From an uncultured Clostridia bacterium (lineage in GTDB: Bacteria; Bacillota; Clostridia; Oscillospirales; Ruminococcaceae), in NCBI GenBank assembly GCA_945923775.1, contig CAMELR010000024.1, forward strand, positions 1 to 40,447: DNA of 40,447 nucleotides. The letters run 5' to 3'. Below the pieces are notes generated by a model. That model worked only from the letters and a program-made list of their open reading frames with translations, searched no databases and had not been told where the DNA came from. Every line of letters begins with the position of its first letter. Positions within the stretch are counted from its first letter, which is position 1. Below, in pieces: positions 16,265 to 40,447 of this stretch. Both the position numbers and the translations under genes were made by a program.

Positions 16265-16293
16265 TTGTAATCATTGCCGACTTATGGTATAAT
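16265..16293 (+). promoter_or_regulatory. Sigma-A promoter of the kinase-FHA-AAA-PP2C operon
   Basis: TTGTAA (16265-16270), 17-nt spacer, TATAAT (16288-16293). The leader is only about 25 nt. No further promoter is evident before the end of the operon at 24178, so the seven genes are probably one transcript. Confidence 0.8.
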
Positions 16294-16326: not shown

Positions 16327-17973
16327 ATGAGCGGCGAAACAAGGCTGAATCCGGCCGTGCAGAACATACGCAGTGGCGGAGAGACCGTAATAAACCCGGC
16401 GCTGGGCATTGCTGCGGAGCTTCCCGCCGGTACGCTGCTCCCGGGCGGCTACGAGGTAGTCAGCAGGCTTGATGTCCCGGCTGGGGAGGCGGATATTTTC
16501 CTTTGCAGGAAGGACGGTCAGGACTACGCCGCGAAGCTCTACCGCCGTCAGATAGCGGTAAAAAGCGAAGTCCTGGCGGCGCTGGAGGGCGTTGACTGCC
16601 CCTACATCGCGCCGATGTACTATTCCGGGAGCTATTCCGGCAGGCACTTCGAGGTGCTGCCGTACTACCGCCGCGGCTCGCTGCGTGGCAGGCGATTCGG
16701 GATAGACGAACTGAAAAGCCGCATTATCCCGGAGATAAACGAGGCGCTGGGGGCGCTCCATGACGCGGGGATAATCCACAAGGATCTCAAACCGTCGAAC
16801 ATAATGCTCACCGACAGCGGCGACATAGCGATAATCGACTTCGGGATAAGCTCGGTTCAGTCGGACGGAAGCACCGTAATAGTCACAAGCACCGGCATGA
16901 CCCCGGAGTACTCCGCGCCGGAGACGTTCCGTAGGCTGTTCCTTGAGGAATCCGACTACTATTCCTTCGGGATAACGCTCTACGAGCTGTTCTGCGGGCA
17001 CACTCCCTACGCGGACATGACTGCGGAGGAGATCGCGCAGTACACCGCGATACAGCGTATCCCGCTGCCCGGCGGCATGCCGCAGGAGCTGAAAGGTCTG
17101 ATAACCGCGCTGACCTACTGCGACCTTACGAACCGCCGCAGGCGCTCCAGCCCGGACCGCCGCTGGACCTACACCGAGGTCGACAACTGGCTGAGGGGAG
17201 TTCCGCAGCCGATTCCCGGCGAGGGAGTTTCACAGAGGCGCGGTTTCCCGGCGTACAACTTCCTGAATATCACCTACAGCGACCTGCACAGTCTCGTTAA
17301 CGCGTTCGCGGAGAACTGGGAGCAGGGCAAGAAGCAGGTGTTCCGCGGGCTGCTGTCGGCGTTCCTGAAGCCATATGACCCGCAGCTCGCGGGGTACGCG
17401 CTCGACGCGGAGGAGGAAGTCTCCCGGGGCGAGGATACAGACGTTTCGTTCTTCCGGCTGCTGTACCGCCTCGACCCGCAGCTGAAGGCGTTTTGCTGGA
17501 AGGACAGGCGGTTTTCCGGGCTGTCGGCGCTTGGCGGGTTCATTCTGAACGACGCCCGGGAAAACGGCGTTTCCGGGGAGTTCGCCGGGGAGGTTCTCTC
17601 GCGGCGGCTCATTTCGGAGTACGTAAGGCTGACCACCGCAGACGAGCGGCTGTTTGAAGCGGCTCGGTCGGTGGAGGACAACGCAAGGCTCAGCGCCGGG
17701 GACCTCCGTGGGGAACTATGCGCGAGATTCACGGCGGGATTTGCGCTTGCAAAAGAGCGGAAGCTCCATGTTGACGACCTTGAATTCTCAAGCCCCGGGG
17801 AAATTACGGCTCTGCTTAATTCGCTGCTCAGAACCGACGTGCTGATGTTCGAGCGGCTGATAACCAGGCTTACAGGCGTGGACGGTACGTTAGACCCGCA
17901 GTTCGAGGCGTGGCTTATCGCGCTTGGCAGGCGTGCTGAGGTGGAAAAGTGGAAATCATCGCAGGAGGTGTGA
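16327..17973 (+). CDS. Cytoplasmic Ser/Thr protein kinase
   Basis: Hanks-type kinase of 548 residues with no TM segment or PASTA domain. The ATG at 16327 follows AGGGGGT; the much longer open frame upstream overlaps the GNAT gene and is rejected. The catalytic domain is complete: AAK lysine K70, HKDLKPSN with D153, DFG D171 and an APE motif ending near E199. HKD replaces the common HRD. Ahead of the domain are two copies of an ETxxNPA motif (T5 and T20). The last ~250 residues, after RRWTYTEVDNWLRG, are an unrecognised mostly helical region. As first gene of a seven-gene operon with an FHA protein and a PP2C phosphatase, it probably writes the phosphothreonine mark of this system. The substrates are unknown. 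Confidence 0.92.
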   Translation: MSGETRLNPAVQNIRSGGETVINPALGIAAELPAGTLLPGGYEVVSRLDVPAGEADIFLCRKDGQDYAAKLYRRQIAVKSEVLAALEGVDCPYIAPMYYSGSYSGRHFEVLPYYRRGSLRGRRFGIDELKSRIIPEINEALGALHDAGIIHKDLKPSNIMLTDSGDIAIIDFGISSVQSDGSTVIVTSTGMTPEYSAPETFRRLFLEESDYYSFGITLYELFCGHTPYADMTAEEIAQYTAIQRIPLPGGMPQELKGLITALTYCDLTNRRRRSSPDRRWTYTEVDNWLRGVPQPIPGEGVSQRRGFPAYNFLNITYSDLHSLVNAFAENWEQGKKQVFRGLLSAFLKPYDPQLAGYALDAEEEVSRGEDTDVSFFRLLYRLDPQLKAFCWKDRRFSGLSALGGFILNDARENGVSGEFAGEVLSRRLISEYVRLTTADERLFEAARSVEDNARLSAGDLRGELCARFTAGFALAKERKLHVDDLEFSSPGEITALLNSLLRTDVLMFERLITRLTGVDGTLDPQFEAWLIALGRRAEVEKWKSSQEV

Positions 17974-17974
17974 C

Positions 17975-19246
17975 ATGAGCGGTCCCAAAACATCAAGATA
18001 TAAACTTACCCCGGCGCAGCGCCGAATGCTCATCGCGCAGAGGGAGCGCCAGCGCAGGAGCGGCGAGGCTTCGGCGTTTCTTGCGGGGATACGCGCGAAG
18101 CTTTGCAGGCTGAAACAATTCCCCGCAGATGAACTTGAGCGTACGGAAATACTCATGCAGCGCACCGGCGAGCAGGCATACTCTGAAAAGCAGGACGAAC
18201 TCTGCCAGCGCGTGCAGGAGGTTATCGGGAAAATAGACGAGGTGAAGGGCAGCAATGATCCGGCGCTCCTTGAAAGAACTCTGGAGCAGGCAAAGCAGGA
18301 GTACGAAAGACTGCTGACCCAGCGCGGAGAACTGGACGGAATATCCTGCGAGATCGCCGCGAAGCTCCGCCGGGACGTTCACGACGGAATCGACAAGGCG
18401 TTCAGCGCGGACTTGTCCGGGCTTGGTTCCGAGGAGGAGCGCCGCTCAGCGGAACTCAGGGAGGCGATATTTGCCAGGGTGGAGCGGTTTTCATCGCCGG
18501 AGCTTTCCGAGCCGCTGAAGCTGGACGTCATGGAGGTTCGGGAGCGCCTGGCAAAGCTGAACAGCGCCGACGAGCTGTCGAATTTCAGCGCGCTGACGGT
18601 CGCGCCGCTGGAAAGGCGCTGCCGGGAATACGAGCAGCTCCGCAGGGAGCACGGCGCGGAGTTCGACCGGCTCACGGCGCGGTATCACGCGCTCTGCATG
18701 GAACTCGGCAGAAATCCGGAAGCAGTCCCGCTGGAGCGGGGAGCAGTCCAGCGGCTGGAAACGCTGATTGCTGAGCTTGAAGCTGAAATTCAGCACGCCG
18801 AGGAGCAGGCGTACATAAACCGCTGCATTGACGAGGTTATGGAGGAGATGGGCTACCGCCTTATCGGAAAACGTAGCGTAGTGAAGCGCAGCGGCACGAA
18901 GCTCCGCAGCGAGCTTTACAGCTTCAGCGAGGGCATGGCGGTCAACGTGACCTACTCCAGCAGCGGCAGCATTACAATGGAGCTTGGCGCAGCGGACGTC
19001 CGCAGCAGGCTCCCCGGAGAGGACGAAGCAAAGCGCCTGACTGAGGATATGCGCAGCTTCTGCGGAAGCTTCCAAGAATTCGGGCGGCGGCTGCTCGAAA
19101 AGGGCGTCGAGGCAGAGCATTTGTCGCTGCTCCCTCCGGAGCCGGAGTACGCGCAGATAATAGATATCAGCGGCTACGAAATGACCGGGGAATCAGCCCG
19201 GGACTTCACCACCGCCGCACCAAAGGAAATGAGCGCAGATGAGTAA
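17975..19246 (+). CDS. Coiled-coil protein of the kinase operon, unknown function
   Basis: 423 residues, no recognised family. The very charged N-terminus (MSGPKTSRYKLTPAQRR) leads into long heptad-like helices at about residues 20-130 and 200-300, consistent with coiled coils. A more globular C-terminal third has beta-type segments (SYxFSEGMAVNVTYSSSGSI region). There is no signal peptide or TM segment. The ATG at 17975 lies 1 nt past the kinase stop, with AGGAGG inside the kinase 3' end. The stop overlaps the FHA gene by 8 nt, so it is translationally coupled on both sides. It may be a scaffold or a phosphorylated substrate of the system (inference). Confidence 0.88.
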   Translation: MSGPKTSRYKLTPAQRRMLIAQRERQRRSGEASAFLAGIRAKLCRLKQFPADELERTEILMQRTGEQAYSEKQDELCQRVQEVIGKIDEVKGSNDPALLERTLEQAKQEYERLLTQRGELDGISCEIAAKLRRDVHDGIDKAFSADLSGLGSEEERRSAELREAIFARVERFSSPELSEPLKLDVMEVRERLAKLNSADELSNFSALTVAPLERRCREYEQLRREHGAEFDRLTARYHALCMELGRNPEAVPLERGAVQRLETLIAELEAEIQHAEEQAYINRCIDEVMEEMGYRLIGKRSVVKRSGTKLRSELYSFSEGMAVNVTYSSSGSITMELGAADVRSRLPGEDEAKRLTEDMRSFCGSFQEFGRRLLEKGVEAEHLSLLPPEPEYAQIIDISGYEMTGESARDFTTAAPKEMSADE

Positions 19247-19841
19247 ATTCAAGATATGCCCGGACTGCGGCAGGCGCAATCCGCCGGGAAGAATAGAATG
19301 CGAAGAGTGCGAGGCTGACCTCACCGCAGTCCCGCTGACTGACGGAGGGCTCCTAGAAAATCCCGCGCAGAGCGCCGCTGTGCAGTCTGAACCGCCCGTG
19401 AAGCCGCGCCCGGTGAGAATATGCGCCTGCGGGGCTGAGAATCCTGCGGCGGCGCGGGTATGCGCTTCCTGCGGGGAGGATATATCGGATATAATCCCGA
19501 CAACTCCCGGGGAAATATGCTGCACGCTTGCCGCCTGCGATGGAAGCTGGGCGCTCGCGCTGGCTTCCCCGGAGCTCATTCTCGGCAGGGAGCGGGAGCT
19601 TGCGGAGCATTTCGCCGCGAAGCCGTTCGTGAGCCGTGTCCACGCAAAGCTGAGCATGTCAGGCGGCAGAGTGTTCATCGAGGACATGGGCGCGACGAAT
19701 CACACCTACGTCAACGGCGAGCTTGTGACAGGGGAGCCGCGGGAGCTTCTTAACGGCGACGTTGTCGGACTGGGCGGCAGTTCTCCGGACGATGAGACCC
19801 AGCGCGGCGCGGCGTACTTCAACGTGCGCATATGCCGATGA
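19239..19841 (+). CDS. Double zinc-ribbon FHA-domain protein
   Basis: 200 residues. Two small zinc-ribbon-like modules come first (C7-x2-C10 with C21-x2-C24, and CxC with CxxC near residues 68-84), then an FHA domain (about 100-195) that binds phosphothreonine peptides. FHA landmarks are LGR near residue 115, SRVHAKL and TNHTYVNG. The last has His where Gly is usual (N-G-T) but keeps the binding Asn. It overlaps the preceding gene by 8 nt and the next by 10 nt. In this operon it is the likely reader of the kinase mark; the N-terminal ETxxNPA repeats of the kinase are candidate ligands. Confidence 0.9.
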   Translation: MSKFKICPDCGRRNPPGRIECEECEADLTAVPLTDGGLLENPAQSAAVQSEPPVKPRPVRICACGAENPAAARVCASCGEDISDIIPTTPGEICCTLAACDGSWALALASPELILGRERELAEHFAAKPFVSRVHAKLSMSGGRVFIEDMGATNHTYVNGELVTGEPRELLNGDVVGLGGSSPDDETQRGAAYFNVRICR

Positions 19842-20485
19842 TGTACGCGGCGAGGATCCTATATCCAGTTAAAACGCTGGGTCCCGGCGACCGGATAGGA
19901 ATATGGCTCTGCGGCTGCTCTCACGGCTGCCAGGGGTGCAGCAATCCCGAGCTGTGGAGCCGCGGGGAGCAGTTTCGAATCACCCGGGAGCGGCTGCTGC
20001 AGCTGGTAGGCTCGATCGCACAGGGCGCGGAAGTCGACGGCTTCACGCTGACAGGCGGCGATCCGCTCGAACAGGCCGAGGAGCTTGCGCTGCTGCTTCC
20101 GGAACTGCGGAAGATCAGCGGAGACATACTTGTCTACACAGGCTACACGCTGGAGCAGCTCCGCGCAATGGACTCCCCGGCGGTGGAGAGCGTTCTGAGG
20201 AACACCTCCGTACTAATCGACGGCGAGTACATTCAGCAGAGGAACACTGGGCTTCCGCTGCGCGGGTCGGATAATCAGCGGATAATATACCTTGATGAGA
20301 GCCTGCGGGCGCGGTACGAGGAGTACATCAGCGGCGGGAGCGGGATACAGGATTTCCCGGCGGCGGACGGAATCGTTTCGGTCGGGATACACCGCCCGGA
20401 TTACCCGCAGGAGCTTGAGCGGCGGCTTGCGGAGAAGTCCATAATAAAATGCGATACAGAGGAGAACGGAAATGACGGAGCTTGA
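19832..20485 (+). CDS. NrdG-like radical SAM protein
   Basis: 217 residues, 4Fe-4S single-cluster radical SAM family related to the activase of anaerobic ribonucleotide reductase. The CxxxCxxC motif is C29, C33, C36, preceded by WLCGC; the GGDP motif (LTGGDPLEQ) follows. It cleaves S-adenosylmethionine to make a 5'-deoxyadenosyl radical. There is no nrdD or other glycyl-radical enzyme beside it; instead it is embedded in a phosphosignalling operon, overlapping its neighbours by 10 and 14 nt. Three Met codons (19832, 19838, 19841) are possible starts; the first is given. Its target is unknown and may be another product of the operon. Confidence 0.9.
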   Translation: MPMMYAARILYPVKTLGPGDRIGIWLCGCSHGCQGCSNPELWSRGEQFRITRERLLQLVGSIAQGAEVDGFTLTGGDPLEQAEELALLLPELRKISGDILVYTGYTLEQLRAMDSPAVESVLRNTSVLIDGEYIQQRNTGLPLRGSDNQRIIYLDESLRARYEEYISGGSGIQDFPAADGIVSVGIHRPDYPQELERRLAEKSIIKCDTEENGNDGA

Positions 20486-21575
20486 TGAACTGAAACAGCG
20501 CCTGGAGATAGAGGAACTCCGCGGGAGACTGTCGGCGGCGGAAAAGCAGATTTCAATACTGACCGACACGCTTGCCACCCTGACCGAGATACAGACCTCT
20601 GACCGGCTGGGGAGCTATATCAACAGTCAGGTGCGGCTGCTGAAGGCTGCGGAATTCCTCAATTCCGTGTCAGACGGCGAGAAGATTGACCCGCAGCTCC
20701 AGCGGCAGAGCGTTGAACAGGCGGGGCTTCGCAAGTCGGAGCTTGACGCGCATATCTCCGGTGCGGTGCAGCTTTCAAAGGAAAAGAGCCTGCATACCGT
20801 CGACAGCCGCATAGCGAAGGCGGTCGATAACTGGCAGAGCAGCGCCTCAACGCAGGATACTAAACTGTTTACTTACCGCAACGAGGGCGGCGGGATCACG
20901 ATAACAGGTCTGGTACAGCGGCGGGACTTCGACGGCGAGGTGATACAGCCGTCAGTGCTGGAGATACCGTCGGCGATAAACGGCATTCCTGTCACAAAAA
21001 TAGGCGACGGAGCGTTCCGTGGGTGCCATGTTCAGAAGGTGAAATTCCCGGAGGGGCTGCGCACTATCGGGAAGGACGCTTTCAGCGGCTGTGGACAGCT
21101 TTCCGCGGCGGTTTTCCCGGATTCGCTGATGTCGATAGGCACGGGAGCGTTCGCAAGCTGCGGATTTCACTCGCTGCACCTTGAAAATACCAGTCTCACT
21201 GTTATCCCCGAGAAGTGCTTCGGCTGGTGCAGCGGACTTCAGAAACTGGCGCTTCCGGAATGCCTGCTTTCCATCGAGAACAACGCGTTTGCGGAGTGCC
21301 GGGCGCTCACGCGGCTGATAGTTCCTGAAAACACGCTGACGGTCGAAAGTCCGTTCAGCAGCTTCACCGGAGGGGAGCGGCGCTCCATAGCGGTGATAGG
21401 CATGAACACAAAACTGGTGGATATCTGCGGGCTGACCCTTTCCGGAGCGCTTTTCGGCGGCAAGCCGATGGTGCAGAATCTTACCGTGTACTGTCTGCCG
21501 GACAGCGCGGCGCAGCGCTACTGCCTTGATAACGGCGTTCCGTGCAGACACCTTTCAGAGTTTCCCGCAGAGTAA
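20472..21575 (+). CDS. Intracellular leucine-rich repeat (LRR_5, BspA-like) protein
   Basis: 367 residues. The N-terminal ~60 residues form a charged coiled coil (LDELKQRLEIEELRGRLSAAEKQ). A helical linker follows, and from about residue 150 there are LRR_5-type repeats (IGDGAFRGC, IGKDAFSGC, IGTGAFASC, IENNAFAEC). BspA-like LRR proteins are normally secreted; this one has no signal peptide or anchor, so it is probably cytoplasmic. It overlaps the radical SAM gene by 14 nt and is 12 nt ahead of the AAA+ gene. A protein-binding adaptor role is the natural inference; nothing shows the partner. Confidence 0.87.
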   Translation: MTELDELKQRLEIEELRGRLSAAEKQISILTDTLATLTEIQTSDRLGSYINSQVRLLKAAEFLNSVSDGEKIDPQLQRQSVEQAGLRKSELDAHISGAVQLSKEKSLHTVDSRIAKAVDNWQSSASTQDTKLFTYRNEGGGITITGLVQRRDFDGEVIQPSVLEIPSAINGIPVTKIGDGAFRGCHVQKVKFPEGLRTIGKDAFSGCGQLSAAVFPDSLMSIGTGAFASCGFHSLHLENTSLTVIPEKCFGWCSGLQKLALPECLLSIENNAFAECRALTRLIVPENTLTVESPFSSFTGGERRSIAVIGMNTKLVDICGLTLSGALFGGKPMVQNLTVYCLPDSAAQRYCLDNGVPCRHLSEFPAE

Positions 21576-21587
21576 AGGAGGCGGCAC

Positions 21588-23450
21588 ATGTCGAATACCC
21601 CGAAATGGCACCGCGAGCTTGAGATATTCAGCCGCATAAAGCCCCTTATAATGCTGGAGGGGAATATCCTGGACAGCTATCAGTTCCCGTACGAGGGAAG
21701 CGTTCCGAAGGGCAGTATACTGCGGCTCAGCGACTATCTCCATTATTTTTATAAGGACATGGGCTACGGGAGCATTGTGTTCTATGACAGCCGCCGGGGG
21801 TTCTATAATTCCTGCGAAAGCGGCTACACCGAGGGGTTTTCCGAGCTGACAGGCGCGGAGGTCAGCGGCGGTTTTATCGAAGCAGGATTCCGCACCGGTG
21901 AGGCCGCCCGGCTGATACAGCGCGCTCTCTCGCAGAACAGAACGCCTTGTGTGGTGGTGATGAACTTTGCGTCCAGGTGCATAGCCTCGCCGGAGCGGCT
22001 CCAGCAGCCGGAGGTTGACAGCTTCACCGCGCTTTTGCAGGCTGTGATGGATTCCGCAGAGGTGCGGACGGACGGCGGTAAGCTGCGTAATCTGCTGATC
22101 CTTGCGGTGAACAAGTCAAATGATATTCCGGCGTGGTTCTACCTTGACAACCCGAACGAAAAGACAATAACCATCGGCACTCCCACCCGCGATGAGCGGC
22201 TTGAGTTCGTAAGCGGCGGGAATTTCCCGGCGTTCTTCACATCGGAAAACTACCGCCAGGGCATGGAGTGGTACGGTTCCCGCGGCGATGAGCTTCGCGC
22301 GGTTCAGGAGCGCTTTGCGGCGCTGACCGAGGGTTTCAGCTTTACGGAGCTGAACGGTCTGCGAAAGCTCTGTAAGAACGAAGGCTTCGCGATGAAGGAC
22401 ATGTGCGGAGTTATCGACCTCTACAAATACGGCGTTCGTGAGAATCCGTGGCGCAGCCTTGACATAGAGAAGCTGCGCGGTGCAGAGGAGTACTTCCGCA
22501 GCCGCGTGAAGGGTCAGGACGCGGCGATAGTACGCACGCTTGACGTGGTAAAGCGCGCAGTGACCGGGCTTTCCGGGCTGCAGGGAAGCTCCCACACCCG
22601 GCCAAAGGGAGTGCTTTTCTTTGCGGGTCCTACCGGCACGGGTAAAACAGAGACTGCAAAGACGCTTGCGGCGCAGCTTTTCGGTGACGATAGCTGCTGT
22701 ATCAGGTTCGATATGAGCGAGTACAGCCAGTCGCACAGCGACCAGAAGCTGCTCGGAGCGCCCCCGGGATATGTGGGCTACGAGGCTGGAGGTCAGCTCA
22801 CCAACGCAGTCAGGAACTCGCCGTTTTCGATACTGCTTTTCGACGAGATTGAGAAGGCGCACACGTCGGTCATGGATAAATTCCTGCAAATCCTCGAGGA
22901 CGGCAGAATGACTGACGGTCAGGGGAACACCGTGTATTTCTCAGAGTGCGTAATAATTTTCACCAGCAATCTTGGAATATACACGCGCACTCCGGACGGC
23001 GGAAGGCAGCAGAATGTAACGCCCGACATGCCGTACCCGGAGGTTCAGAAGCGCGTCCGCAGCGCGATAGAGGAGCATTTCAAGCTGGAGCTTGGCAGAC
23101 CAGAGATACTGAACCGAATCGGCGAGAACATCGTTGTGTTCGATTTCATACGTCCCGAGGCGGCTCGGAATATACTGCGTTCGCAGGTCGACAGGATATT
23201 CCGAGACCTGTCGGCGGAGCGGCGAATTGAGATGATGATATCAGAGCGGGCTTATTCCGTTCTTCTGGAGCATGCGCTTGGGAATCTGGAAAACGGCGGC
23301 AGGGGAATAGGGAACATCGTAGGCGCGCTTCTGATCGACCCGCTGTCGAGATATCTTTTTGATAACGGCATTTTTTCCGACGCACGGCTTGAGATAACCG
23401 GAATAGACGCGCAGTCAACGCCGGCGTGCCTTGAGTGCCGCAGGAGCTGA
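21588..23450 (+). CDS. ClpB-like AAA+ ATPase with degenerate first module
   Basis: 620 residues. The second half is a full Clp/Hsp100 D2-type AAA+ module: Walker A GPTGTGKTE (about residues 347-355), pore-loop region GAPPGYVGYE, Walker B ILLFDEIEKAH (about 415-424), sensor TSNLG, and arginine/sensor-2 region RPEILNRIGENIVVF, followed by a ClpB-C small domain. The first ~300 residues resemble an AAA module in layout (VVVMNFASR in Walker B position, LLILAVNKSN) but lack any Walker A, so I infer a degenerate D1. There is no ClpP-binding loop that I can see and no N-domain. The ATG at 21588 follows AAAGGAGG. It is probably an unfoldase or remodeller controlled by phosphorylation in this operon. 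Confidence 0.9.
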   Translation: MSNTPKWHRELEIFSRIKPLIMLEGNILDSYQFPYEGSVPKGSILRLSDYLHYFYKDMGYGSIVFYDSRRGFYNSCESGYTEGFSELTGAEVSGGFIEAGFRTGEAARLIQRALSQNRTPCVVVMNFASRCIASPERLQQPEVDSFTALLQAVMDSAEVRTDGGKLRNLLILAVNKSNDIPAWFYLDNPNEKTITIGTPTRDERLEFVSGGNFPAFFTSENYRQGMEWYGSRGDELRAVQERFAALTEGFSFTELNGLRKLCKNEGFAMKDMCGVIDLYKYGVRENPWRSLDIEKLRGAEEYFRSRVKGQDAAIVRTLDVVKRAVTGLSGLQGSSHTRPKGVLFFAGPTGTGKTETAKTLAAQLFGDDSCCIRFDMSEYSQSHSDQKLLGAPPGYVGYEAGGQLTNAVRNSPFSILLFDEIEKAHTSVMDKFLQILEDGRMTDGQGNTVYFSECVIIFTSNLGIYTRTPDGGRQQNVTPDMPYPEVQKRVRSAIEEHFKLELGRPEILNRIGENIVVFDFIRPEAARNILRSQVDRIFRDLSAERRIEMMISERAYSVLLEHALGNLENGGRGIGNIVGALLIDPLSRYLFDNGIFSDARLEITGIDAQSTPACLECRRS

Positions 23451-23476
23451 AACTAACGGCGGAGGGAGTGAACGAG

Positions 23477-24178
23477 ATGAAAGTAAGCGTGATAACGCGG
23501 AGGGGCACCGGAAGCGAAGCAAGTCAGGACCGGGTGCTGATAGGCGGGCGTGTGCTCTGCGACGAGGAGTTCTCCGGGGAGTTCGATCAGCCATGCGCAG
23601 TCGGAATAGCGGACGGCGTAGGCGGGAACGCCGGCGGGGATATTGCGGCCGAATTCGTGTGCAGGGGGCTTTCGTCTCTGAGCGTGTTCACACCGCAGGA
23701 GGCTTTCCGTGTAAATTCCGAACTTCTGGAGTACGCCGGGGCAATTCCGGGAATGGAGAACATGGCGTCGACTTTCTCGGGGATATTTCCGGGCGGGAAG
23801 CTGTTACATATCGGTAACACGCGTATATGCGCGGTTCAGGGAGGGTATCTCAAGCAATTGACCACCGACATGACCACGCGGAATTACCTGGCGTCTCTCG
23901 GGCGCTCCGAGGAAGCGGAGCATTGTAACAGCAGTGAGATCACGGCGTGTTTCGGCGGAGGTCGGGAATCGTTCTATGCTCCGGTGATTTTTGAGATTCC
24001 GCTGACAGGCACGCTGCTGATGACCTCCGATGGAGTTCACGACCACGTAACCGCTGATGATCTCGAGAGTATTATTTCTGATTCGGGAAGCGATCCCGAC
24101 GTGCTTCGAAGAATGATTTCCCGTGCGCTGGAATGCGGTTCGGAGGACGATCTGAGCGCGGTTCTGCTTAGGTTCTGA
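23477..24178 (+). CDS. PP2C-family Ser/Thr phosphatase
   Basis: 233 residues. Metal-binding Asp motifs of PPM/PP2C phosphatases are present: SQDR near the N-terminus, DGVGGNAGG (about residues 48-56), SDGVHDH, and DDLSAVLL at the end, where DN is more common. The frame opens at 23435 inside the AAA gene, but the ATG at 23477 has GGAGGGAG 8 nt upstream and is chosen. It is the last gene of the operon and the natural eraser for the kinase encoded first. It is soluble and slightly short for the family. Confidence 0.9.
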   Translation: MKVSVITRRGTGSEASQDRVLIGGRVLCDEEFSGEFDQPCAVGIADGVGGNAGGDIAAEFVCRGLSSLSVFTPQEAFRVNSELLEYAGAIPGMENMASTFSGIFPGGKLLHIGNTRICAVQGGYLKQLTTDMTTRNYLASLGRSEEAEHCNSSEITACFGGGRESFYAPVIFEIPLTGTLLMTSDGVHDHVTADDLESIISDSGSDPDVLRRMISRALECGSEDDLSAVLLRF

Positions 24179-24306: not shown

Positions 24307-24383
24307 GCGCCAGTAGCTCAGCTGGATAGAGTATCTGGCTACGAACCAGAGGGTCGGGGGTTCGAATCCCTCCTGGCGTGCCA
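24307..24383 (+). tRNA. tRNA-Arg (anticodon ACG)
   Basis: 77-nt cloverleaf with encoded CCA. The acceptor stem GCGCCAG/CTGGCGT closes with G-U. The D stem is GCTC/GAGT, the anticodon stem TCTGG/CCAGA with loop CTACGAA, and the T stem-loop GGGGG-TTCGAAT-CCCTC. ACG (read as ICG) decodes CGU, CGC and CGA. Such tRNA genes are common integration sites. Confidence 0.97.
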
Positions 24384-25247: not shown

Positions 25248-26036
25248 ATGAAAAAGGGACTGACAGAATTGGTATTTATAGTAGACAAAAGCGGCTCTAT
25301 GAGCGGGCTTGAGAGCGACACCATCGGCGGTTTCAACTCCATGTTGAAAGAACAGCAAGGCGTTGCGGGCGAAGCAGTTGTTACGACGGTGCTTTTCAGC
25401 GACCGTGTGAAGCTTCTGCATGACAGGCTGGACATTCAGGCGGTTGCGCCCCTGACCGACGAGGACTACTCCGTCGGCGGTAACACTGCTCTGCTGGACG
25501 CTCTTGGTGCGGCAATGCACAAGGTTAAGGAATCGCGTCGCAATATGCGCAAGGAATTTCTGCCCGAAAAGGTGATGTTCGTTGTTATCACCGACGGCGA
25601 GGAAAACGCAAGCAGGCACTACACAGCCAAGATGATTCGCGAGCGCATTGAAAAGTTCAGGAAAATGGGTTGGGAATTCATCTTCTTCGGGGCGAACATG
25701 GATTCGGTTACACAGGCGGGAACGCTTGGAATATCTGCTGACCGTGCCTTTGACTACTTCTCTGATTCCGTTGGCACACGCTCGGCATACTCGGAGATTT
25801 CGGCAATCTCTTCTGCGATTCGCACCGGTGCAGCTGTGCCGAAATCCGGAGCAAACGATGTGAAGAATGCCTTGGGAAATCTCAAGAACATTGTCGGAAA
25901 TCTTCGCGACTCGCTCAGCGACCTTACCTCAGACATTTCGGAGATTAACGCAGCCGCAGAAAACAACGGCGGCAGTATTGCAGATGTAAACGAGATTATG
26001 AGGGATTTCTTCAACAGAAAAAGCAAGGAGGACTAA
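25248..26036 (+). CDS. von Willebrand factor A domain protein
   Basis: 262 residues. The vWA fold fills about residues 7-190, with a complete MIDAS: DKSGS (D13, S15, S17), a Thr in GGNTALLDA and the ITDGEE Asp. It resembles soluble TerY-type vWA proteins. The C-terminal ~70 residues (SALGNLKNIVGNLRDSLSDLTSDI region) look like an amphipathic coiled coil. There is no signal peptide. A -10 like TATAAT lies at 25196-25201. The stop is 2 nt before the phosphatase start, so the pair is co-translated. vWA proteins usually bind a partner through a metal ion; the phosphatase is the obvious candidate. Confidence 0.9.
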   Translation: MKKGLTELVFIVDKSGSMSGLESDTIGGFNSMLKEQQGVAGEAVVTTVLFSDRVKLLHDRLDIQAVAPLTDEDYSVGGNTALLDALGAAMHKVKESRRNMRKEFLPEKVMFVVITDGEENASRHYTAKMIRERIEKFRKMGWEFIFFGANMDSVTQAGTLGISADRAFDYFSDSVGTRSAYSEISAISSAIRTGAAVPKSGANDVKNALGNLKNIVGNLRDSLSDLTSDISEINAAAENNGGSIADVNEIMRDFFNRKSKED

Positions 26037-26038
26037 TT

Positions 26039-26731
26039 ATGAAATACGCTGTTTCCGACCTTCACGGAAGATATGACAAGTACAAGGCACTCATTAAAAT
26101 GCTGGACAAGAACGACACACTCTACATTCTCGGTGATGTAATCGACAGAGGCCTCGACGGGTTCAGAATACTTCTTGACATGGCACAGCGCCCGAATGTT
26201 GTAGGGCTTATGGGCAACCATGAGGACATGGCGCTTAAAGCACTATCCGGGCTTACAAGCAAATCCCGCAGAGGAAAATCACGAACTAACCTGAGCGGTC
26301 TTGAACTATGGTTCAGCAACGGCGGTGCGGTTTCGATGAAGGGGCTTATGAATATGAAGCCCGATGAGCAGCAGAAGGTTCTTAACTATATGCAGTCGCT
26401 GCCGCTGTACAAAGAAGTCAGCGCGGGCGGCAGGGATTTCGTGCTGGTTCATGGCGGGCTGGAGGGATTCTCCCCCTCCAAGCCGCTCGAAAAATACAAG
26501 CGTGATGAGCTGCTGTGGTGTCGTCCCAAAAAGGGCATGAAGTATTACCCGGACAAGTTTGTGGTTTTCGGACATACGCCCACGATTTTTGAAAGCCACT
26601 TCACTGCAAGCGTTGTTCCGGGAAAAATCTACCGCAAGAGCGGCTGGGCAGATATCGACTGCGGCTGCGTCTATGGAAGCGACAATCTTGGGTGTCTGTG
26701 CCTGGATACGATGGAGGAGATTTATTTGTGA
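26039..26731 (+). CDS. PPP-type metallophosphatase (Ser/Thr phosphatase-like)
   Basis: 230 residues. All metal and phosphate motifs of the PPP/PrpA-like bacterial phosphatases are present: SDLHGR near the N-terminus, GDVIDRG, GNHED, LVHGG and VFGHTPT. It probably removes phosphate from Ser, Thr or His residues, or acts as an Ap4A-type hydrolase, which shares these motifs. It follows the vWA gene by 2 nt. With the PP2C at 23.5 kb it is the second phosphatase family within 3 kb. Confidence 0.9.
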   Translation: MKYAVSDLHGRYDKYKALIKMLDKNDTLYILGDVIDRGLDGFRILLDMAQRPNVVGLMGNHEDMALKALSGLTSKSRRGKSRTNLSGLELWFSNGGAVSMKGLMNMKPDEQQKVLNYMQSLPLYKEVSAGGRDFVLVHGGLEGFSPSKPLEKYKRDELLWCRPKKGMKYYPDKFVVFGHTPTIFESHFTASVVPGKIYRKSGWADIDCGCVYGSDNLGCLCLDTMEEIYL

Positions 26732-38611: not shown

Positions 38612-40009
38612 TTATTCATCGTCCTTCTTCAACTGTTCGCCTGGAGTAAGCAGAGCCTCCAGCTTGTCCGCAGCAATATCCTCAACAGAGCGCAGGGAGT
38701 GCCCGTAGATGTCGCTGGTCGTTGAGGCTAGCGTATGCCCCAGCCTCTTTGACACCGCCTTGAGCGGCACACCCTGCATAAGCAGCATGGTTGCCGATGT
38801 ATGCCGAAGCATATGCGGGGTTACATGTGGCAGACCGTTCCTCGCAGTAAACTTCCTCAGCCATGTGGTTACGCTTGACGGGTGAATCGGCAGACCGTTG
38901 CACTGCGTGAAAATCTTGCCGCTCTCCTGCCAGCCTTCGCCCATCTGCTCACGGATAGAGTTCTGATACTCCCTGAACTCCGCCAACATTGTCATCACCG
39001 ACTGCGGCAGCTTGACATAACGCTCGGAGCTTTCGGTCTTGGTGGAATCCTCATACATACCGACATTCGGCAGGTAAAGGGAATTGCGACAGATATGTAT
39101 GCAGCCGCTCTCCCAATACACATCGTTCCACTCCAGACCGCATATCTCCGCTCTCCTTGCACCGCTGAATATCATCAGCTTTACCATAACGGAATACTGA
39201 TACTGCCCTTTCTCGTCAAGTGCGTTTATCAGCTGAAGCGTCTGCTCCTCGTCAAGGCACTTAGCCTCACGGCGACGGAGCTTTGGCGGGTCAACCCGCT
39301 CGCAGGGGTTTGAGAACAGAAAGCCCCATTTAACCGCCTTTGCCAGAATCGCCGAAAGGCATCTGTGATAATGAAGCAGCGTTTTTGAGGAAAACTTCCT
39401 GTCTGTGCCAATCACGTCGAACAGCTCCTCCGGCTGGATTTCAAGCGCCTCGCTTATGCCGAGCGCTGTTTCCTTGCTGACATTGTTTCCTGCCGCCATG
39501 CTCTCCAGCGTGGTCATTGAAATGCCAGCCGCGTCTATCAGCTTGTAGCGCGAGATGTCGTTGTCCTTCATGAACTTACGAAAATCAATGCGGCATTTGT
39601 ACTTGTAGTCGATTCGTATGCCTTCCTCGGCGAGGTTCTTGTAGAAAGCATTGAGGTGGAGCGGTGTTATTTCGGACAGCTTCAGATGTCCGAGCGCCGG
39701 CTGTATTCGTTTGAGCAGGTCGTCGTAGTGCTTCTGCGTGGTGTTTTTGAGGTGCGTCTGCTCGTAGTCCTGCCGCCACTGCTCGATAAAGACGTTCAGC
39801 GTTATGGAGTCATCAATGTACTGCTCCTGTCGGCATTGTTCCTCGAACAAAACCTTTTGTCGGGTTATCTCCTCCTGCTTTTGCCGCTCGGTCATGTTCG
39901 GGTCAAGGTGTATTGTGCGGGTCTTGTATCGTCGGACATTGGTTTTGGGGTCAAAGCCGTCCGAAACTCTTATCCGCACGCTGTTTCCGCGGATTTGAAT
40001 GTTTCCCAT
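38612..40009 (-). CDS. int: Tyrosine site-specific integrase with inserted HTH domain
   Basis: 465 residues. The N-terminal arm-binding region (about 1-60) and SAM-like core-binding domain (about 60-230) precede the catalytic domain with SGARRAEICGLEW (first Arg), HVTPHMLRHTSA (H-x2-R) and LGHTLASTTSDIYGHS (His and nucleophilic Tyr). The core-binding domain is interrupted at about residues 138-200 by a Cro/C1-type HTH (KFMKDNDISRYKLIDAAGIS, then a GNNVSKETALGISEALE recognition part). The ATG at 40009 has AAAGGATGAT upstream; an earlier in-frame ATG at 40045 is less likely. It lies downstream of an excisionase-like gene on the same strand. The element should extend to the right, out of the window, with its left attachment site between about 38560 and 38611. 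Confidence 0.93.
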   Translation of the reverse strand: MGNIQIRGNSVRIRVSDGFDPKTNVRRYKTRTIHLDPNMTERQKQEEITRQKVLFEEQCRQEQYIDDSITLNVFIEQWRQDYEQTHLKNTTQKHYDDLLKRIQPALGHLKLSEITPLHLNAFYKNLAEEGIRIDYKYKCRIDFRKFMKDNDISRYKLIDAAGISMTTLESMAAGNNVSKETALGISEALEIQPEELFDVIGTDRKFSSKTLLHYHRCLSAILAKAVKWGFLFSNPCERVDPPKLRRREAKCLDEEQTLQLINALDEKGQYQYSVMVKLMIFSGARRAEICGLEWNDVYWESGCIHICRNSLYLPNVGMYEDSTKTESSERYVKLPQSVMTMLAEFREYQNSIREQMGEGWQESGKIFTQCNGLPIHPSSVTTWLRKFTARNGLPHVTPHMLRHTSATMLLMQGVPLKAVSKRLGHTLASTTSDIYGHSLRSVEDIAADKLEALLTPGEQLKKDDE

Positions 40010-40064
40010 AGTATCATCCTTTCCTGATATTAAGCCCATCTGCACGAAACAGACGGGCTAAGTA

Positions 40065-40391
40065 TCAACGCTTGATTCGTGCAGGAACTTTTCGGATTCC
40101 GTCCGCTGCTGCCATGGGGACAGACGCTTCCGGCTCCGGCTGTTCCGCCTTTACGCCGCCGCTCATCAGAAATTCCATAAGTACATTCCAGTTTATGAGC
40201 GTTTTGTTGCCAACCTTGATACAGGGTATCTGCCCTGTGCGGCAGAGAAAGCGCAAGGTGTTCTCGTTGAGACCTATGTGCCGTTCCCTGCAGCACTTCG
40301 CCGTCACAGAGATATTGTTTATCAGCTGCGGCGGCATTCCCTGGTTAAGCGGGAAAAAAGTGATTATCTGGACATTTGTGTTCTCGTCCAT
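40065..40391 (-). CDS. Excisionase-like small DNA-binding protein
   Basis: 108 residues from the ATG at 40391 (the frame continues to a TTG at 40436; the ribosome binding site is weak for both). The middle (LNENTLRFLCRTGQIPCIKVGNKTLINWNVLMEFL) matches the winged MerR/excisionase HTH family that guides excision by tyrosine integrases. It lies 55 nt upstream of int on the same strand, the usual xis-int order. The C-terminal tail is Pro/Ala-rich and basic. Confidence 0.8.
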   Translation of the reverse strand: MDENTNVQIITFFPLNQGMPPQLINNISVTAKCCRERHIGLNENTLRFLCRTGQIPCIKVGNKTLINWNVLMEFLMSGGVKAEQPEPEASVPMAAADGIRKVPARIKR

Positions 40392-40447
40392 AGTGTTCTT
40401 GTCAAGCAAAATTGTAACACTTTCCCCCAAAATCAAGCCATACGTTT

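Follow-up and report, generated by a model that had tools for sequence, protein, structure and literature searches.

A conserved operon of an Hsp100-like AAA+ protein, a radical SAM enzyme and Ser/Thr phospho-signaling genes from Clostridia: a possible modular conflict system

The contig CAMELR010000024.1 of an uncultured member of the Ruminococcaceae (assembly GCA_945923775.1), analyzed here over positions 1 to 40,447, a stretch called the window below, carries seven co-directional genes on the forward strand between positions 16327 and 24178. They encode, in this order, a Ser/Thr kinase, a coiled-coil (CC) protein, a zinc-ribbon/FHA protein, a radical S-adenosylmethionine enzyme (rSAM), a leucine-rich repeat (LRR) protein, an AAA+ protein and a PP2C-type phosphatase (Table 1). 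An earlier note, made from the nucleotide sequence, had listed this gene set with the same domains, and it is confirmed by the open reading frames and by matches in Pfam and NCBIfam. The intergenic gaps are 1, -8, -10, -14, 12 and 23 nt in gene order, in agreement with the claim that the genes from the kinase to the AAA+ gene are 1-14 nt apart or overlapping; with an alternative GTG start at 23435, the PP2C gene would overlap the AAA+ gene as well. The single promoter proposed for the operon fared less well. A promoter-like site with 10 of 12 consensus bases does precede the kinase gene, but the region contains seven such sites against 3.7 +/- 2.1 in shuffled sequence, and for this reason the site alone is weak evidence.

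Table 1. Features of the operon in the window, with family matches and the number of loci, among 54, that carry a homologue near the AAA+ gene
Feature	Position	Strand	Match or remark	Loci
Promoter-like site TTGTAA-17-TATAAT, extended -10	16265..16293	+	consensus match only	
Ser/Thr kinase	16327..17973	+	Pfam PF00069 5.1e-28	32/54
Coiled-coil protein (CC)	17975..19246	+	no family	46/54 (any-type CC)
Codon of CC residue Cys363	19061..19063	+	invariant across 58 aligned non-minimal CC rows	
Double zinc ribbon + FHA protein	19239..19841	+	PF00498 1.2e-13, PF12773 1.3e-6	47/54
Small radical SAM enzyme (rSAM), NrdG/Fer4_12-like	19832..20485	+	Fer4_12 3.8e-29	52/54
LRR_5 (BspA-type) repeat protein, accessory	20472..21575	+	PF13306 1.6e-27	6/54
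AAA+ protein, anchor of the operon family	21588..23450	+	AAA_2 1.9e-47	
PP2C-type Ser/Thr phosphatase	23474..24178	+	NF033484 8.5e-20, below cut-off	41/54

The C-terminal part of the AAA+ protein is a D2-type AAA_2 module of the Hsp100 kind, matched by ClpB and ClpC chains of the PDB with E-values down to 4e-89, and its Walker A motif is kept in 52 of 55 copies. A Walker A pattern in the N-domain was found in only two of these 55, both of them shortened frames. The alignment with ClpA starts at query residue 199, a point that falls inside the first AAA+ module of ClpA. Because of this alignment start, and because complete copies have no Walker A in their N-terminal part, that part is probably a degenerate, dead D1. 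The protein is similar to ClpB, ClpC and ClpV in its D2 module, but differs from them in an N-domain without Walker A, and it scores far below the curated cut-offs for ClpB (255.7 bits against 1232.1) and ClpV (209.8 against 884.95).

When the whole AAA+ protein was used as query, matches were found in 61 of 61 genomes, mostly through the ClpB-type D2; the N-domain (residues 1-290) was therefore used to avoid them. It matched 5 of 43 genomes of the window genus and 4 of 394 sampled from the order, and its profile matched 15 of 398 genomes sampled from the phylum, including two weak matches without an AAA-family label (L128 and L129), which were dropped. The search in named genomes returned 54 loci. 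According to the record titles, most of their hosts are Lachnospiraceae, Oscillospiraceae and other Clostridia, and the set extends to Succinivibrionaceae (Ruminobacter, Succinimonas), to bins of Treponema and to one bin of Synergistaceae. Among the carriers are Mediterraneibacter agrestimuris DSM 111629, Clostridium drakei SL1, Ruminobacter amylophilus DSM 1361 and Succinimonas amylolytica DSM 2873. Five pairs of loci were taken as duplicates (L042 and L048, L043 and L049, L046 and L050, L047 and L092, L045 and L100), and L055 and L090 share one contig.

Gene content was counted from labels within eight genes of the AAA+ gene on the same strand, and many of the 54 loci are cut by contig ends (counts in Table 1). 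All six genes other than the LRR gene occur together in 26 of the 54 loci, and in 19 of the 28 that have at least 7 kb upstream and at least 2.5 kb downstream. With unlabelled genes ignored, the order kinase-CC-FHA-rSAM-AAA+-PP2C is found in 18 loci, and the same order without a kinase in view in eight more; a rotated order with the kinase last occurs in six, and four related genomes of the phylum sample have the order kinase-CC-AAA+-rSAM-FHA-PP2C. The earlier note had named scattered homologues without common order as the outcome that would speak against a unit, and had suggested the count of co-occurrence presented here. Copies in the same order exist in other families and phyla, so the operon is a real unit and more than a product of chance. 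The co-selected set that had been proposed, with a writer, a reader, an eraser, a ClpB-like motor and an rSAM, is borne out, and its motifs are mostly kept. The LRR gene, seen in so few loci, does not belong to it: as a core component it was rejected, and we regard it as a lineage add-on. In two loci (L042 8371-8808 and L043 11949-12401), an extra gene of about 145-150 codons lies between the rSAM and LRR genes; its product resembles, by eye, the N-terminal part of the LRR protein, and the window does not have it.

Kinase, FHA, PP2C and Clp-type ATPase genes co-occur in type VI secretion systems (T6SS), and the operon could be imagined to have arisen, by reduction or exaptation, from a machine for secretion or assembly akin to T6SS, type VII secretion or contractile injection systems. 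The rotated variant, which bears an FtsK-type ATPase and neighbors of 302 and 189 aa, would suit such an origin. FtsK is, however, present in only 3 of 54 loci, the helicase-nuclease partners described below do not fit, and TagH (18.3 bits against a cut-off of 120.25), like ClpV, scores too low. Kinship to T6SS was rejected on these scores. The earlier note had pointed to the lack of sheath, spike and membrane-complex genes, and a Pfam scan of 19 window proteins found none. The absence of an outer membrane, which had been added as an argument, is irrelevant, since relatives exist in Succinivibrionaceae and on proteobacterial plasmids, whose hosts are diderm. A secretion or assembly machine is accordingly a most improbable explanation. 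In three loci with the rotated order (L090, L091, L101), the operon continues with genes for proteins of 302 aa, about 190 aa and 1100 aa, the last of the FtsK/SpoIIIE type.

The AAA+ and rSAM genes form a nearly universal pair. An AAA+ protein with this N-domain and a nearby rSAM, the combination by which we delimit the operon family, is found in the window and in 52 of the 54 loci, and in 39 the rSAM gene lies directly upstream. No rSAM was seen in L060 and L064, and it does not adjoin the AAA+ gene in L044, L123 and L135; the last (Geminocystis) has a 4Fe-4S gene some 9 kb upstream. Trees of the two proteins took in 66 of 78 loci. The distance matrices are correlated with r=0.896 over these 66 loci (one duplicate), with a maximum of 0.25 in 500 permutations; this excludes random pairing, but not a shared vertical history, and common genome history adds to the figure. 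In both trees, the groups with the minimal, the csm-adjacent and the fusion form (see below) are single clades, whereas the rotated group is strictly one clade in neither.

The window rSAM has the motifs CxxxCxxC and GGDP, and CxxxCxxC is kept in 51 of 53 copies, both misses being cut-off frames. Its best-scoring models are glycyl-radical activases; however, it reaches only 103.5 bits against the NrdG cut-off of 126.1 (TIGR02491), and two other proteins of the window genome score above it (196.3 and 142.3 bits). A housekeeping NrdG was rejected as its identity for these reasons. The same matches raise the question of stress or metabolic control, in which the AAA+ ring and the NrdG-like enzyme would activate or repair a glycyl radical enzyme while phosphorylation sets the timing. 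The absence of an evident island around the window copy and the many carriers in named genomes that we take to be anaerobes would agree with this. The housekeeping activase, on the other hand, is probably encoded elsewhere, by the two proteins above the cut-off; the recurrent neighbors, as far as they were annotated, include no recognizable glycyl radical enzyme; and relatives reside beside helicases or nucleases on plasmids of Rhizobium, Acinetobacter and Leisingera. We consider control of a glycyl radical enzyme unlikely. The CC protein has a conserved Gly-Tyr that might itself carry such a radical, but this is also unlikely, since two of the 68 aligned rows have E or D in place of the glycine.

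The product of the second gene is a coiled coil, as read from chance-level matches to designed and natural coiled coils. It begins with MSGPK, and its C-terminal region, starting near residue 275, is conserved over about 120 residues. It matched no family of Pfam or PADLOC, NCBIfam gave one chance-level line (0.0083), and 35 scanned homologues gave scattered single family matches only. The alignment of CC proteins has 68 rows from 67 distinct loci (L045 and L100 being the same), several of them near-identical. In the ordinary alignment, a cysteine (residue 363 in the window) is present in 68 of 68 rows, the next best cysteine column reaching 24. In a control alignment with all cysteines masked, the column holds in 57 rows, and the exceptions are ten minimal-form rows and L085. 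Profiles of the two CC types match weakly (probability 23%, masked 12.5%), their two cysteines are not aligned, and the minimal-form protein has a cysteine of its own. Because the masked control and the profile comparison fail for the minimal rows, we claim invariance for the 58 non-minimal rows only; there Cys363 is the sole fully invariant column (58 of 58, and 57 of 58 when masked). Cys363 is a candidate target of the rSAM; we treat its invariance, in a protein encoded near a conserved radical SAM enzyme, as a lead and not as a result.

The window kinase has the motifs HKDLKPSN and DFG, followed by a long uncharacterised C-terminal region. Among kinases of the family, DFG is kept in 33 of 34 and the HRD-type loop in 30 of 34. 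Conservation of SRxH in the FHA protein (36 of 48) and of DG[VI]GG in PP2C (35 of 42), both counted with strict patterns, is weaker than that of the kinase, rSAM and AAA+ motifs, and PP2C was detected only through the NCBIfam model Stp1 (NF033484; 71.2 bits against a cut-off of 230). The kinase part also matches the PADLOC model MkoA (5.4e-21), but MkoA models match kinases too.

Some relatives carry helicases in addition. A helicase-nuclease of the DUF4011-SF1-MTES_1575 type lies near the AAA+ gene in 11 of 54 loci, and a DUF4011 helicase-type protein also accompanies the operon on a 44-kb plasmid of Aristaeella lactis (WTE2008). The one such protein scanned (L053) matches the PADLOC models PDC-S37 (E=0) and Hhe (2.6e-171). 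On a plasmid of Rhizobium leguminosarum, kinase, DUF4011, SF1 helicase and MTES_1575 nuclease are fused into one chain of 2086 aa, which has zinc-ribbon-like CxxC pairs by eye and adjoins the AAA+, rSAM and MSGPK proteins. Its kinase part shares 26% identity over 247 residues with the window kinase, a value at which any two such kinases might match. By its labels, a Caballeronia plasmid has the fusion form too. A DUF4236-type protein of about 280-365 aa follows PP2C in eight of the 54 loci by profile (L050, L051, L053, L055, L056, L058, L059 and L066; Pfam-checked in L053 and L059).

The window type has no helicase and has the LRR gene added. PF13195 (DUF4011) was absent from the window genome (93.8% complete) and from the two other genus genomes with the whole operon, G004 and G014, among the 20 chosen genomes in which it was sought. 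It was present in G422, whose operon holds both helicase and LRR genes. In the AAA+ tree, the window clade sits inside a larger group with many, but not all, copies bearing a helicase, and for this reason we lean toward loss of the helicase in the window lineage.

A minimal form consists of an MkoA-like helicase, a PIN protein, CC, AAA+ and rSAM, without kinase, FHA and PP2C. Plasmids of Moellerella, Acinetobacter, Polaromonas, Leisingera and Photobacterium carry it, as do bins of Treponema and Clostridia and one genome of the window genus (G010). The N-domain of its AAA+ protein matched 10 of 72,556 plasmid records, and Moellerella accounts for six of these. A DNA-level search of 5,426 E. coli genomes with its AAA gene found no place covering 80% of the query; 1,479 records matched, and the ten matches listed are Clp-type genes over 16-17% of it. 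In L133, the helicase matches MkoA (8.7e-96) and the PIN protein weakly matches MkoB (1.1e-5). In two hosts that are distant from each other (L133 14709-16691 and L045 7068-8797), the minimal form is directly followed by a nucleotide-kinase-like gene and then by a further radical SAM gene. The earlier note had proposed a phosphothreonine-gated remodeling machine in which the rSAM would modify a component or substrate; the writer, reader, eraser and motor are indeed kept in the window type, but the minimal form dispenses with kinase, FHA and PP2C, and the phospho-switch therefore does not define the family.

This form also bears on another possible reading, a toxin-antitoxin pair of kinase and phosphatase comparable to KKP or Stk2, in which AAA+, rSAM, CC and LRR would serve only for regulation or sensing. 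Kinase and PP2C do occur together in all 26 complete loci, and there is a precedent: KKP is a phospho-based antiphage toxin-antitoxin module in which PP2C is the antitoxin to two toxic kinases, one with FHA and one with a cold-shock domain (CSD; PMC11341870). The window shares a Ser/Thr kinase, FHA and PP2C with KKP as described there, but has one kinase, its FHA on a separate zinc-ribbon protein, and AAA+, rSAM, CC and LRR in addition; no cold-shock domain was found in the operon. Stk2, an abortive-infection kinase of staphylococci and a precedent for kinase-based defense (PMC6532042), is likewise a eukaryote-like Ser/Thr kinase; compared by description, it differs as a single locus (PMC11341870). 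KKP is defined by its two kinases with CSD and FHA, and the minimal form retains AAA+, rSAM and CC while dropping kinase, FHA and PP2C, for which reason we do not place the core in the phospho part; a toxin-antitoxin module of this kind is improbable as the explanation of the operon.

Our preferred interpretation is that the operon is a modular, phospho-switched conflict system, probably antiphage, with AAA+, rSAM and CC as its core, to which we assign a probability of about one half; the role in defense is deduced from context. It rests on the conservation of the operon over phyla, the parallel AAA+ and rSAM trees, the association with helicases and the defense genes that neighbor some of the loci. 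Among the latter, csm-type CRISPR genes lie beside L124 and L125, both with the order kinase-CC-AAA+-rSAM-FHA-PP2C. The Moellerella plasmid copy adjoins restriction and ArdA genes, the Photobacterium copy an HsdR-type gene, and integrase and transposase genes also stand beside plasmid copies. The neighbors of the plasmid copies and the direct helicase-nuclease partners are firmer evidence than a test of flanking proteins against PADLOC (E<=1e-15). There, a sample of 90 out of 122 flank proteins, from 12 loci, matched 49 families in all; a sample of 121 out of 134, from 48 of the 54 loci, matched 128 families (including DpdF, PglZ, BrxH, PsyrT and HEC-01A); and a control sample of 90 out of 291 proteins, from 17 of 18 other stretches, matched 2. 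An Hsp70-like gene (by eye; L124 2742-4499) was also seen near the operon and the csm genes.

Several points weigh against a conflict system. Each PADLOC family among the matches listed was hit by one or two flank proteins only, several models are kindred, and families were counted rather than distinct defense proteins (a SufC-like protein matched mad3). Most of the 12-locus result comes from csm genes in two related genomes, and the 48-locus set and the control differ in genome composition; we regard the enrichment as suggestive. Two N-domain queries found no copy among 50,697 phage records. The full operon of the window genus stands at one chromosomal site in three genomes, with no evident island; 43 of 54 loci have no visible DUF4011 helicase, though many contigs end early; and no solved relative of the CC protein was found beyond the chance matches to coiled coils.

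In the three genus genomes that share this site, the genes upstream of the operon are SufC, SufD (assigned by hand) and GNAT (by Pfam). Another genus genome (G005, locus L044) has an AAA frame without the first ~118 residues, right behind IS-type transposase genes. In the window, the operon ends upstream of a tRNA-Arg gene (24307-24383). Genes for a helix-turn-helix protein, a vWA protein and a metallophosphatase further downstream were rejected as operon members; each profile matched the window alone among 57 loci, and all three lie past the tRNA gene. At 25248-26731, the vWA gene is directly followed by the metallophosphatase gene. A tyrosine integrase gene (Phage_integrase 7.9e-28) and a small unclassified reading frame lie at 38612-40436, 14 kb beyond the tRNA gene, and perhaps an element has inserted itself close to the tRNA gene. 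An 18-base piece from the 3' part of the tRNA gene has no second copy within the window.

For the proposed conflict system, we infer the following course of events. An Hsp100-like AAA+ ring would handle the CC protein, and a dedicated NrdG-like rSAM would work with this pair, while the kinase, the zinc-ribbon/FHA adaptor and PP2C would form the switch. In a healthy cell, PP2C would keep the kinase off; upon infection, the kinase would phosphorylate a component, the FHA protein would dock this component onto the AAA+ ring, which would then remodel the CC protein. In some relatives, the output may be the adjacent helicase-nuclease (DUF4011-SF1-MTES_1575, or a Mokosh-like helicase with PIN). Since the window genome has no DUF4011 helicase, its output may consist in phosphorylation that is toxic, as with Stk2 and KKP, in remodeling by the AAA+ protein, or in both; the LRR protein would be an additional sensor or adaptor.

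By the features compared, the operon is not T6SS, KKP, Mokosh or Hhe proper. Relatives resemble Hhe and PDC-S37 in a DUF4011-SF1 helicase-nuclease near the kinase or, in Rhizobium, fused to it, but the window operon has no helicase, and its AAA+, rSAM, CC, FHA and PP2C match no Hhe model. The minimal relatives resemble Mokosh type I, but have AAA+, rSAM and CC in addition; the window kinase is a separate protein, and no helicase label, hence no MkoA-type SF1 helicase with MkoB, was found among the window frames. In a published tree of helicases, Hhe, MkoA and MkoC fall within SF1_Upf1 (PMC10925250). TerY-P systems combine kinase, PP2C and vWA as a triad; the window's vWA gene stands past the tRNA gene, outside the operon. 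In a Synergistaceae locus (L086 11872-18447), two vWA-type genes, PP2C and a weakly kinase-like gene of 490 aa adjoin the core, with a Mokosh-like helicase cut by the contig end; this locus is perhaps a bridge to vWA-kinase-PP2C sets. The vWA-MoxR, FtsH and GTPase conflict systems have an NTPase chaperone core with swappable effectors, including a radical SAM effector in the FtsH theme and kinase, PP2C and vWA in the GTPase theme (PMC7159879); compared with these, the window has another AAA+ type and no vWA gene in its operon.

No PADLOC 2.0.0 model fits the AAA+, rSAM, CC and FHA of the scanned proteins beyond generic or partial matches, and no description of this gene set was found in the open-licence literature, a coverage that leaves subscription journals mostly outside. 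The family is apparently undescribed, in line with the earlier view that no named system has this composition. As to a database family that already assigns a role, none fits the window core, but relatives adjoin helicase-nucleases of known or candidate defense families. The system may represent a variant among conflict systems linked to phospho-signaling and helicases, and its core could turn out to be of a new kind.

If our interpretation is true, a current catalogue (PADLOC 2.0.0) lacks a widespread family of conflict systems, and this family joins Ser/Thr phospho-signaling, Hsp100 remodeling and radical SAM chemistry, themes seldom combined. A further idea, which we put forward tentatively and consider rather doubtful, is a new immune principle: the rSAM would install a radical-made change, perhaps at Cys363, in the CC protein, the AAA+ protein would read or pull it, kinase, FHA and PP2C would set the timing, and the helicase-nucleases would be exchangeable outputs. 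Viperins make an antiviral nucleotide; here, the radical SAM chemistry would instead have a protein of the system itself as its substrate. The modular series of minimal five-gene, fusion, full and helicase-less forms permits asking what each part contributes.

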